IMG/VR virus record: IMGVR_UViG_3300025276_000144
Coordinates: 1 to 29,851 of that record
Source of the DNA: a virus
Length of the DNA: 29,851 bases
Strand: one strand, 5' to 3'
In this document: one piece after another, positions 10,124 through 27,665 of the stretch
How the letters are laid out: every line of letters begins with the position of its first letter
How positions within the stretch are numbered: position 1 is the first letter of the stretch
The notes under the pieces: model-generated
The model's database searches: none
Told to the model about the DNA's origin: nothing
The model's input: only the letters and a program-made list of their open reading frames with translations
Position numbers and translations under genes: made by a program

Positions 10124-10174
10124 TTTATACCACCAAAAGCCCAATCCGTTAAGATTGAGCTAGTGAGGTAGGTT
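10124..10174 (-). other. Intergenic hairpin element, copy A
   Basis: Directly follows the stop region of the 94-aa gene. The transcript forms AGCTCAATC/GATTGGGCT (9 pairs, one T-G) around loop TTAACG at 10138-10161, then the conserved tail TTTTGGTGGTATAA. The 37 nt at 10138-10174 are identical to 11051-11087. The four-T tail is too short for a strong terminator, so attenuation, RNA processing or mRNA protection are the options. Confidence 0.75.
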
Positions 10175-10178
10175 GTTA

Positions 10179-10463
10179 TTACAAATTGTCTCTTTGAGCA
10201 TTACCTCTTGATGCTTGTATTCCATCAGCTATTCCAAATGCTGTATGACCAAATTTTTCTCTGCATATTTCCATAGTTAAATCGTCATCAAACTTTGTTT
10301 TTCTTCCATTTAATAAAATTGCAAACCATTCTGTTTCCCAGCCGTCAGCATGAAAAAATGTTATAAAAGCCTTATTTGATAATTCGCTGAAAGCTTCAGA
10401 TGATAATCCTGATAATTGTTTTGAAGTAATTGATCTTCCTAAATTTTTATTTAAACTATTCAT
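10179..10463 (-). CDS. Hypothetical accessory protein, 94 aa
   Basis: A 94-residue protein starting MNSLNKNLGR at ATG 10463. This start is chosen because it is preceded by the same AATTACTAC leader as the other accessory genes; the longer frame upstream would translate the conserved hairpin tail. A Ser-rich helical N-terminus (SKQLSGLSSEAFSEL) is followed by an aromatic strand region (FHADGWETEWFAILL) and a C-terminus ending NAQRDNL. No family recognised. Confidence 0.7.
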   Translation of the reverse strand: MNSLNKNLGRSITSKQLSGLSSEAFSELSNKAFITFFHADGWETEWFAILLNGRKTKFDDDLTMEICREKFGHTAFGIADGIQASRGNAQRDNL

Positions 10464-10466
10464 AAT

Positions 10467-10475
10467 GTAGTAATT
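10467..10475 (-). promoter_or_regulatory. Shared start-site leader motif (1 of 7)
   Basis: AATTACTAC lies just upstream of the ATG at 10463, separated by ATT. The same 9 bases precede the starts at 10822, 11425, 11758, 27222, 27374 and 27602 and no other gene that I found. It is not a Shine-Dalgarno sequence. It either helps initiation in a host that rarely uses Shine-Dalgarno pairing, or is a site for a translational regulator. Confidence 0.7.
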
Positions 10476-10490
10476 TTTAGTTATTGTTTG

Positions 10491-10528
10491 TTTTATACCA
10501 CCAAAACCTCGCATCGTTAGATGCAAGG
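10491..10528 (-). other. Intergenic hairpin element, copy B
   Basis: Follows the winged-helix gene. The transcript forms CCTTGCATC/GATGCGAGG (9 pairs, one T-G) around loop TAAC at 10507-10528, then TTTTGGTGGTATAA. The stem sequence differs from copies A and D at most positions but keeps pairing, which is direct evidence that the RNA fold is selected. Confidence 0.75.
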
Positions 10529-10546
10529 CGTTGATGTGTTTTGCTT

Positions 10547-10822
10547 TTAGCAATCATTCCATTCTGGGTGTAAATTGTAGTGGCTCTCTTCTAAATAAAC
10601 AATCATCATAAAGTCTATTCCTTGACAATCATTATCTCCAATCCATATTATATCTTTTTTAACTAAACTTGCAAGAACACCTCTAATTGATTTCATTGAT
10701 ATGCCTGTGTTTTCTGATAAATCTTGTGGCGAAACATCACTAAACCCAGGCTCTGCATATAAGTGGTCGATTAAAACTGATAATATTGTTTCTTCTAATT
10801 TTGTTAAATTTAAATTTGTCAT
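10547..10822 (-). CDS. Winged helix-turn-helix protein, putative regulator
   Basis: A 91-residue protein with a small winged-helix domain: LEETILSVLIDHLY as helix 1, a V-S-P-Q-D-L-S segment, recognition region TGISMKSIRGVLASLVKKD, then a short wing (IIWIGDNDCQGIDFMMIVYL). The pattern resembles MarR-like or Dph-type small regulators that I recall from Bacteroidetes mobile elements. It is the first gene after the second accessory promoter and heads the early operon, so it could regulate the three copies of that promoter. Leader AATTACTAC lies 1 nt before its ATG (10824-10832). Confidence 0.65.
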   Translation of the reverse strand: MTNLNLTKLEETILSVLIDHLYAEPGFSDVSPQDLSENTGISMKSIRGVLASLVKKDIIWIGDNDCQGIDFMMIVYLEESHYNLHPEWNDC

Positions 10823-10853
10823 CGTAGTAATTTTTTAGTTATTAATTTCATTG

Positions 10854-10885
10854 TAAATATACAACCTTTTTTTTAAACTGTTAAC
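10854..10885 (-). promoter_or_regulatory. Accessory/early promoter P2
   Basis: On the minus strand GTTAACAG at 10885-10878, 16 nt, then TATATTTA at 10861-10854, close to the Bacteroidetes -7 box TAnnTTTG. The block from GTTCAAATAAGTTAACAG to the start codon is nearly identical to P3 (11.8 kb) and similar to P1 (27.6 kb). It should drive the winged-helix gene and probably the whole early operon downstream. Confidence 0.6.
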
Positions 10886-10920
10886 TTATTTGAACTTTTT
10901 TATCATTTATTTTAGTTTCC

Positions 10921-10934
10921 TTGATTAGAATCAA
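10921..10934. promoter_or_regulatory. Inverted repeat upstream of P2, putative operator
   Basis: A perfect TTGATT-AG-AATCAA palindrome about 36 nt upstream of the -33 region of P2. P1 has a related imperfect palindrome (27699-27715) at the same distance, and P3 a degenerate one near 11850. Conserved position and sequence suggest an activator or repressor site. The rest of 10935-11040 shows no gene. Confidence 0.45.
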
Positions 10935-11042
10935 TGTTAAAATGTATTGATTTTTATTAAAATTATTAAGATCTAAGCTATTTTTTAAACTATAAAACGT
11001 ATCTAAAGTGTCATTTTTAAATAAGCAACGGAGAATTATAAC

Positions 11043-11074
11043 AAAAAAATAGCCCAATCCGTTAAGATTGAGCT
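11043..11074 (-). terminator. Intrinsic terminator (hairpin element copy C)
   Basis: The same AGCTCAATC/GATTGGGCT stem and TTAACG loop as copy A, but followed on the transcript by ATTTTTTTG in place of the TTTTGGTGG tail. This makes a standard Rho-independent terminator after the 110-aa gene, ending the P3 unit before P2. Confidence 0.85.
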
Positions 11075-11092
11075 AGTGAGGTAGGTTTAATA

Positions 11093-11425
11093 CTAATAGC
11101 TTTCGTCAAGCCAGTTAGCCATGCTATTAGAATTGTTTGTTAAAGTAACTGTGTAACCGTTTGATCCGGTTGGATGCTTGTAGTCATATCTAATTATTAT
11201 TTTTTTGTTGCCAAACTCGTTATAGAATGCAACAACCTCTGCTGTCATTTCTTTAATCGCTGGAGCAAACATTCCTAAACTCTTAGCGTCAATTTTAAAA
11301 GTTTGTTTTGCTATTAGGCTACTGTCTTCTTCTTTAAAATCAGATATAAAATCAAATCCTAATAATTGCAATTTGATTCTTATTACTTCTTCGTTTAAAT
11401 AATTTGTGTTGCTTAAATTTTTCAT
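11093..11425 (-). CDS. Hypothetical accessory protein, 110 aa
   Basis: A 110-residue protein with a helical N-terminus (NEEVIRIKLQLLGFDF), a mixed middle (KIDAKSLGMFAPAIKEMTAE) and a beta-rich end (KIIIRYDYKHPTGSNGYTVT). Leader AATTACTAC lies 1 nt before its ATG (11427-11435). It is the second gene of the P3 unit and is followed at once by a terminator. No family recognised; by position it is an accessory (moron-type) gene. Confidence 0.72.
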   Translation of the reverse strand: MKNLSNTNYLNEEVIRIKLQLLGFDFISDFKEEDSSLIAKQTFKIDAKSLGMFAPAIKEMTAEVVAFYNEFGNKKIIIRYDYKHPTGSNGYTVTLTNNSNSMANWLDESY

Positions 11426-11452
11426 TGTAGTAATTTTTAAATTAATGTTTCT

Positions 11453-11489
11453 GTTATACCACCAAAAGCCCGCACCGTTAAGTGCGAGC
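11453..11489 (-). other. Intergenic hairpin element, copy D
   Basis: Between the two genes of the P3 unit. The transcript forms GCTCGCAC/GTGCGGGC (8 pairs, one T-G) around loop TTAACG at 11468-11489, then TTTTGGTGGTATAA. Compared with copy A, the inner stem pairs change on both sides while loop and tail stay fixed. Confidence 0.75.
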
Positions 11490-11518
11490 CGTTGTTGTTT
11501 ATTTTAGACAAGCTAATT

Positions 11519-11758
11519 CTAATGCCCGTCTGTTCTTTCGGTTATTGTAAAACAATTAAACAAAGACAGTATATCTTTTATTAATGGTTCGTGTATCAAA
11601 CCTATCTGCTCCTCTTCGAACCAATAGCCATCTTTTAAATATAACCAATAAGTATAGTCGTGTCCATCAAAGATGCCCGGATTATACTCTCTTTCTACTC
11701 CACTAACTAGTGGGTGGTTTTGCAAATTTTTTAATGTGTAACATTTTTTAGTTTTCAT
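11519..11758 (-). CDS. Hypothetical accessory protein, 79 aa
   Basis: A 79-residue protein rich in aromatic and acidic residues in the middle (GHDYTYWLYLKDGYWFEEEQ). It is the first gene of the P3 unit, with leader AATTACTAC ending 3 nt before the ATG (11762-11770). The high Tyr/Trp and negative charge could suggest a small inhibitor or DNA-mimic protein, but this is speculation from composition. No family recognised. Confidence 0.7.
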   Translation of the reverse strand: MKTKKCYTLKNLQNHPLVSGVEREYNPGIFDGHDYTYWLYLKDGYWFEEEQIGLIHEPLIKDILSLFNCFTITERTDGH

Positions 11759-11791
11759 AATGTAGTAATTGTTTAGTTATTAATTTCATTG

Positions 11792-11824
11792 TAAATATAC
11801 ATACTATTTTTTTAACCTGTTAAC
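11792..11824 (-). promoter_or_regulatory. Accessory promoter P3
   Basis: On the minus strand GTTAACAG at 11824-11817, 17 nt, then TATATTTA at 11799-11792. It shares an 18-nt identical block (GTTCAAATAAGTTAACAG) with P2, and the leader to the ATG is almost the same. The remaining 11835-11970 holds a degenerate copy of the upstream palindrome and an AATTCTCCGTT block also found upstream of P2 (near 11027); no gene is seen there. Confidence 0.6.
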
Positions 11825-11972: not shown

Positions 11973-12005
11973 AAAAAAAGGCCTACAGAATTTAATCCAT
12001 AGGCC
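11973..12005 (-). terminator. Late-operon terminator
   Basis: On the transcript GGCCTA (12005-12000) pairs with TAGGCC (11985-11980) and is followed by TTTTTTT. It lies 41 nt after the metallophosphoesterase stop, the last gene of the structural and lysis block, so it probably ends late transcription. Confidence 0.8.
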
Positions 12006-12045
12006 CTCGTTCAACAACAAACAAATAAACTAGTCAAAAACTAGA

Positions 12046-23317: not shown

Positions 23318-23333
23318 TTATTTGTTTTTTTTA

Positions 23334-23377
23334 GAATATTAAGGGGAGAAGAATAAACCTCTCCCCTTTTTATATTC
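23334..23377 (-). other. Strong hairpin after the major capsid gene
   Basis: AAGGGGAGA (23368-23360) pairs perfectly with TCTCCCCTT (23349-23341), flanked by GAATAT/ATATTC, giving about 15 pairs. It lies just after the capsid stop... on the coordinate scale, in the gap between the capsid gene and the next gene transcribed. No T-run follows on the minus strand (A-run instead), so it is probably an RNA stabiliser, processing site or partial terminator. It would read as a terminator on the plus strand, where there are no genes. Confidence 0.72.
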
Positions 23378-27386: not shown

Positions 27387-27602
27387 TTAATTATTAATTT
27401 CAATAATTCCTTTAGGTAAATCTCCTTCGTATCTCCACGTAGTTTTTACTATCATATCGTTACCATCGAATTCGTTTTCGTTTTCTTGGTAACATTCTGA
27501 AAAGATAGAATCTTTATTTAGTAAAGAAAATAATTTCTTATACAGACCTGTGTAACCTTTACCTTTTTGGTTTGTTAATCTATATGTTGAAAAATTTTGC
27601 AT
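27387..27602 (-). CDS. Accessory protein, 71 aa
   Basis: A 71-residue protein, first gene of the P1 unit between the large terminase and portal genes. A basic Tyr-containing start (FSTYRLTNQKGKGYTGLYKK) is followed by an acidic middle (CYQENENEFDGND) and a short strand-like end. Leader AATTACTAC lies 1 nt before the ATG (27604-27612). Its promoter and leader mark it as co-regulated with the 10-12 kb accessory genes. No family recognised. Confidence 0.68.
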   Translation of the reverse strand: MQNFSTYRLTNQKGKGYTGLYKKLFSLLNKDSIFSECYQENENEFDGNDMIVKTTWRYEGDLPKGIIEINN

Positions 27603-27632
27603 TGTAGTAATTATTAGTTGTTAATTTCATTG

Positions 27633-27665
27633 TAAATATACAACTATTTTCTTAACTGTTACAAA
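27633..27665 (-). promoter_or_regulatory. Accessory promoter P1
   Basis: On the minus strand TTTG (27665-27662), 21 nt, TATATTTA (27640-27633), close to Bacteroidetes promoter spacing; alternatively TGTAACAG at 27663-27656 as the counterpart of GTTAACAG in P2 and P3. The downstream leader to the ATG is nearly identical to P2 and P3. Confidence 0.6.

Follow-up and report, generated by a model that had tools for sequence, protein, structure and literature searches.

What does a hairpin with a fixed tail do when it recurs between genes that share one operon? The question is raised by the window analysed here, the whole of an IMG/VR record (29,851 bases; IMGVR_UViG_3300025276_000144) in which the minus strand carries all the recognisable phage genes and, with them, four intergenic hairpins. 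The source is a tailed phage, as shown by a prohead protease, TerL and a tape measure protein, the last being the longest reading frame (794 aa). Two short operons harbour the hairpins: one consists, in order, of a promoter, gene 11758-11519, a hairpin with the tail, gene 11425-11093 and a hairpin followed by T7, and the other of a promoter, gene 10822-10547 (whose product has a weak similarity to DnaD_N, under the Pfam cut-off), a tail hairpin, gene 10463-10179, a second tail hairpin, gene 10108-9911 and more genes. Both open with near-identical promoter cassettes, whose -7 element TATATTTAC (TATATTTA at 11792..11799 and 10854..10861, minus strand) is close to the Bacteroidetes -7 motif TAnnTTTG (PMC7366714) and differs from it in the last base. 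None of the genes that follow the three tail hairpins in the window is preceded by a separate -7 motif, and we infer from the sequence that they need read-through.

The surrounding regions contain other repeated signals. Three small genes are preceded by near-identical promoter-plus-leader cassettes, at 10809-10878, 11747-11816 and 27588-27657 (69-83% over 70 nt). The word TTACTAC occurs seven times on the coding strand (AAAAATTACTACaATG; minus-strand positions 27610, 27382, 27230, 11768, 11433, 10830 and 10473), each time immediately ahead of a start codon, and a hairpin that resembles a terminator and carries T8, at 27075-27036 (minus strand), shows in its loop the exact reverse complement of these leaders, TTTTGTAGTAATTT. 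In the relative L040, the loop of this hairpin is identical and the stem is compensated, and the hairpin is a candidate phage small RNA that may act on its own leaders.

The sequence-only reading described four intergenic hairpins, each following a gene stop, and these are borne out, with fold z-scores against shuffled sequence of -4.2 (-4.15), -6.6 (-6.55), -4.0 (-3.97) and -4.1 for copies 1 to 4 and none of 200 shuffles folding as well. Copy 1 (10125..10170, minus strand, as are all copies) lies between genes 10463-10179 and 10108-9911 and combines a 5' arm UACCUCA with a 10-bp stem (AGCUCAAUCU/GGAUUGGGCU), the loop UAAC and the tail TTTTGGTGGTATAA. Copy 2 (10493..10537), between genes 10822-10547 and 10463-10179, has the arm ACAUCAA, the stem GCCUUGCAUC/GAUGCGAGGU and the same loop and tail, and copy 3 (11454..11497), between genes 11758-11519 and 11425-11093, repeats this loop and tail with the stem GGCUCGCACU/GGUGCGGGCU. 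The 14-nt tail is identical at 10138-10125, 10506-10493 and 11467-11454 and has no other exact copy in the window; the three sites are internal to operons. A loop TTAACG shortened to TAAC in one copy, as had been proposed, is not what the structures give: all four hairpins have a 10-bp stem and the 4-nt loop UAAC, and the closing pair alone differs, being U-G or C-G. Stems start 17-28 nt after the stop codon. Against a covariance model whose E-values are rough and whose training-set members score by construction, copies 1 to 3 reach 61.6 (E 1.9e-19), 61.0 and 62.5 bits, respectively, and copy 4 reaches 25.5 bits, matching only model positions 7-30.

Copy 4 (11043..11087; hairpin 11074-11051) resembles copy 1 in stem, loop and 5' arm, over a 40-nt segment of 98% identity that includes the 5' flank, and then continues with A-T7, in agreement with the poly-T tail first noted at this operon end. 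Its stem starts 18 nt after the stop codon, as calculated from the coordinates, and it is the top match of the strand in a terminator scan (11 pairs, then TTTTTTTGTT). Judged by its sequence, copy 4 is a classical intrinsic terminator at the end of its operon. For comparison, a classical terminator with a GGCC stem and T7 ends gene 12741-12046 (11973..12008, approximate ends, minus strand). After each of these two operon-end terminators, around 11030 and 11937 on the minus strand, stands ATTCTCCGTT, and the next promoter follows some 140-190 nt further downstream.

The proposal of a single module had been tied to the presence of further copies in other phages, and such copies, which count in its favour, are numerous: at least 67 non-redundant sites were found in IMG/VR phage contigs by loop-plus-tail, flank-plus-tail and stem-plus-tail pattern scans, the count running from at least 67 to 73 depending on the filter that removed near-duplicates and coding cases. 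The common plan is a hairpin followed by UUUU-N-GUGGUA-NAA, although the invariance of tail and stem is inflated, because the tail and part of the stem served as search criteria and the hairpin as a selection filter. Among the matches listed, a perfect hairpin directly precedes 62 of 148 distinct TTTTGGTGGTA sites versus 68 of 1297 TTTTGG controls. The tail variant TTTTCGTGGTA was found by counting what follows hairpin-TTTT, and a scan with TTTT[ACT]GTGGTANAA gave at least 48 more candidate sites, a few of them clearly in other contexts. The notion of a fixed tail thus holds for the three copies of the window and has to be relaxed for the family: any of the four bases may stand before GUGGUA (G 46, T 16, C 9 and A 2 among the matches listed), and more of the tail varies at the capsid junction described below, which was read without selection. 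The U-tract is T4 in 48 and T5 in 16 of the 67 tail sites listed, 64 in all, and T6 in 3. The hairpin is GC-rich, as in intrinsic terminators, but the run of about six or more U directly after the stem is absent from all tail sites except these 3, and among the four hairpins of the window it is present only at copy 4. Loops are mostly UAAC and GAAA.

Placement is regular on the upstream side, with the stem starting a median of 20 nt after the stop codon (interquartile range 18-25), and the start codon of the next gene follows the first T of the tail by a median of 25 nt. Each record holds one to a few copies, some of them between small non-structural genes. A Shine-Dalgarno role of the tail was rejected, since the tail-to-start distance spans about 9-50 nt and the tail is kept in phages with a clear GGAG (L117 and L139); an extended sigma-70 -10 element in TGGTATAA was also rejected, its final T being absent and TANAA variable. 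A downstream hairpin, UUUGGU[GGUANAA]ACCAAA, appeared compensatory in L026 and L280 and was discarded as a general feature, the whole set giving 10.85 versus 10.75 for shuffled flanks. Eight loci (L008, L014, L035, L107, L110, L113, L235 and L241) carry a small second hairpin, GGCAATAATGCC or similar, between tail and start codon, and L296 and L285 show a possible additional tail class, a hairpin followed by TTTTGTCAGTATAAACC or TTTTGGCAGTATAAAC, twice in one phage.

Two helices, rather than one, are maintained by co-variation. In 26 members of equal length, in which every stem cell pairs by selection, both sides of the upper stem change at 6 of the 10 pairs, in 66 cells, whereas shuffling gives a mean of 20.8 and none of 500 shuffles reaches 66. 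G-U wobbles occur in this stem, which argues that the element acts as RNA rather than DNA. The second, lower helix is absent from the sequence-only reading and was found here: the 5' flank pairs with (UU)NGUGGU of the tail, at -5.15 kcal/mol for a member's own flanks versus -4.71 for permuted tails, with 2 of 5000 permutations as good and, in a wider set, 0 of 5000, kinship being ignored in both tests. The same permutation detects no such helix in ordinary terminators, defined as a hairpin with T6 or more (3215/5000). On average, the flanks that pair best with a given tail version are its own; the exception is the two A-version members, which tie with G. Clear co-variants include ACCACGA/UCGUGGU, ACCACUAAA/UUUAGUGGU, ACCACAGA/UUUGUGGU and, in G014, CUGCGAA/UUCGUGGUAG, and the single phage L065 has three different lower helices. 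In the window, the minimum-energy structure of copy 2 includes both helices; several members (copy 3, L070 and L110) have a weak lower helix, and in copy 4 it cannot form.

The gene context was examined independently of the hairpin at one junction. At L064, L005, L042, L114 and other loci, the products of the upstream genes are plainly related, and their closest named homologue is the major capsid protein of Flavobacterium phages (42%). When 80 relatives of one such capsid gene were fetched and the sequence after the stop was read without hairpin or tail selection, the element was present at about 20 of 56 distinct junctions. At some of these the tail has changed together with the flank: UUUUAUAGGUAAAAG goes with CCUA in L355, L357 and L361, UUUUGGAGUUAAAAG with AAUUUCC in L369, UUUUAGGGUUAAAAAC with UUCUUA in L378 and GGUAGUAG with CUAUUCC in L399. 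About 9 of the 56 have instead a hairpin with T7-9 and, directly after it, a TAnnTTTG-type promoter (L346, L347, L348, L377, L410, L416 and others); the element therefore stands where other phages place a terminator and a promoter. Further junctions have a hairpin without a long U-tract (L380, L389 and L394) or nothing (L374 and L405). In the window, a gene of 412 aa, probably the capsid gene to judge from its size and its position beside the prohead protease, is followed by a hairpin (23330..23377, approximate ends, minus strand; fold z -5.08) with the lower helix GAAUAU/AUAUUC and no U-tract, an alternative hairpin solution at this junction. Compact fusions, in which T7-9 runs straight into TAnnTTTG after the capsid gene, were seen at the six loci named above for this arrangement and at L368.

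Among the matches listed, a codirectional start lies within 90 nt of 61 of 67 elements versus 45 of 71 hairpins with T6 or more (p=1e-4), and a TAnnTTTG promoter follows none of 61 elements versus 11 of 45 terminators (p=4e-5). The genes downstream of the elements would therefore depend on read-through. The best reading of these data is that the element is a read-through intercistronic hairpin, which would differentiate neighbouring cistrons by RNA processing and stability or by weak attenuation, and which probably sets the amounts of neighbouring proteins without ending the message. The earlier idea of one module tuned either for read-through or for termination is partly supported, fitting both the gene context and the lack of promoters.

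The leading version of this reading, held tentatively and on comparative sequence grounds, is that of an operon-internal, transcribed regulatory hairpin for the post-transcriptional separation or stabilisation of cistrons. RNA polymerase would pass the element, since the U-tract is short (4-5) and interrupted by NGUGG, and a downstream gene without its own promoter would be made by read-through. In the resulting RNA, the 5' flank would pair with the tail beneath the main stem, so that a composite hairpin of about 15-20 bp, interrupted by an asymmetric internal loop, would lie between the stop and start codons. Most likely, an endonuclease, of the RNase III type or another, would then cut in or close to the internal loop or the tail. 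Protection of the 3' end of the upstream mRNA would then leave the upstream product, the capsid protein in many phages, in a predicted excess. Poly-T in place of the tail would turn the hairpin into a terminator, as in copy 4.

A leaky intrinsic terminator is a somewhat less probable but serious contender. As an attenuator, the hairpin with UUUU would end some transcripts and GUGG would limit the fraction, so that expression steps down along the operon; the terminator-like hairpin with U4-5, the few changes that make copy 4 a strong terminator, and the position after capsid genes in alternation with true terminators all fit. U4 followed by GG is, however, a poor tract, and the conservation of GUGGUANAA is left unexplained. 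The post-transcriptional reading is placed above it because the lower helix uses bases that an RNA ended at the U-tract would lack, and its pairing is conserved in the element and not in true terminators, an indication that the tail has a role in the RNA made by read-through and does more than weaken termination. Cleavage directed by structure alone would not require GUGGUANAA either, and the conservation of this sequence suggests a sequence-specific reader. It is possible, if doubtful, that the element constitutes an undescribed, phage-restricted family of cis-acting RNAs, with an upper stem bearing a GNRA-like loop, a lower helix and UUUU-N-GUGGUANAA, in unrelated phages of uncultured Bacteroidetes and of some hosts with Shine-Dalgarno starts; a single host factor, common to all, would recognise the GUGGUANAA strand of these RNAs and cut or protect the message between the cistrons.

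An alternative is a binding site in the intercistronic leader, where a protein of phage or host origin, or else a small RNA, would recognise GUGGUANAA and control the translation or decay of the downstream gene. The single-stranded ANAA conserved beside the fixed GUGGU strand would suit such a binding site, as would the GNRA, UNAC or UNCG loops of 38 of 67 elements versus 15 of 71 terminators among the matches listed; the broad tail-to-start distance, the diverse downstream genes, the lack of a candidate binder and the variation of the tail itself at the capsid junction make it improbable. Less probable again is a recombination boundary or mobile repeat that spreads with gene cassettes and has little regulatory role: the near identity of copies 1 and 4, and the near-identical hairpins that recur beside different genes in different phages, are as expected of it, but the diverse stems held by compensatory change, the strict orientation and stop-to-start placement, and the few copies per record are not. 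Finally, a promoter for the downstream gene, of the T4 PeSL type (terminator hairpin and tail promoter) or a hairpin promoter for an N4-type virion RNA polymerase, has the least to recommend it, since, for all that the element always lies directly upstream of a gene, that the commonest tail contains TATAA and that the non-template strand of N4 promoters likewise reads hairpin-TTTTGG (a lead only), the Bacteroidetes -7 motif is missing, in L111, L116, L047 and L045 no more than 4-7 nt separate the tail from the start codon, the tail co-varies with the 5' flank, the stem has G-U wobbles, and no frame in the window, a record that may be incomplete, exceeds 794 aa to encode such a polymerase.

Known systems resemble the element in part. 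The intercistronic RNase III processing sites of phage T7 lie between co-transcribed genes and are built of two helices and an asymmetric internal loop. The element shares this phage-wide, intercistronic position in a polycistronic message and, by folds and co-variation that are weak in some members, the upper and lower helices with an internal loop; it differs in its conserved tail, UUUU-N-GUGGUANAA, and its apparent Bacteroidetes hosts, and its cleavage is only predicted. The T7 partial terminator Tphi gives a downward expression step after the capsid gene, and here too a hairpin with a short U-tract directly follows the major capsid gene and later genes need read-through, whereas the lower helix of the element uses post-U sequence, its U-tract of 4-5 is broken, and it also lies between small non-structural genes. 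The PeSL cassettes of T4-type phages, which are mobile and pair a stem-loop with an early promoter, are likewise repeated intergenic stem-loops between small variable genes, but the element has no host-type promoter motif (TAnnTTTG 0/61) beside it. The JUMPstart/ops element, an operon leader of the RfaH (NusG paralogue) system, has a hairpin followed by a G-rich GGxGGTA-like sequence; the present element lies between genes and has no antiterminator identified. This ops resemblance and a T-box-like pairing with the tRNA 3' end (UGGU) were leads that found no support in Rfam: up to E 1, no family matched the elements, whether in the window or at seven related loci.

Among 84,980 genomes of bacteria and archaea, a pattern scan listed 39 matches with one clear member, L197, a 5.4-kb contig of an Aliivibrio MAG whose second contig holds two more elements; both contigs are probably phage DNA. 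A Gottesmanbacteria contig (L193), with a hairpin before T5GGTGGTATAA, was left out of the member count. Six pattern matches in 299 Flavobacteriaceae genomes included no element (reversed control, 17), and neither this set nor the 84,980 genomes showed the many chromosomal copies of a REP-like repeat. Pattern or model searches found no element in 15 isolate Bacteroidetes phages, the best match (phi4:1, E 3e-4) being a tRNA terminator, and blastn with three consensus elements gave only chance matches among 50,697 isolate phage records. No description of the motif was found in the literature searched, largely open-access papers. Promoter type and capsid similarity point to Bacteroidetes as the hosts.

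The proteins encoded side by side in one phage message are required in very different amounts, and the element would be a compact, recurring solution to this need. Where it and a terminator-plus-promoter occupy the same junction in different phages, one site allows two regulatory strategies to be compared directly. The element may be absent from host chromosomes and, if so, would be a phage signature; it would also offer a portable part for graded expression in Bacteroidetes.
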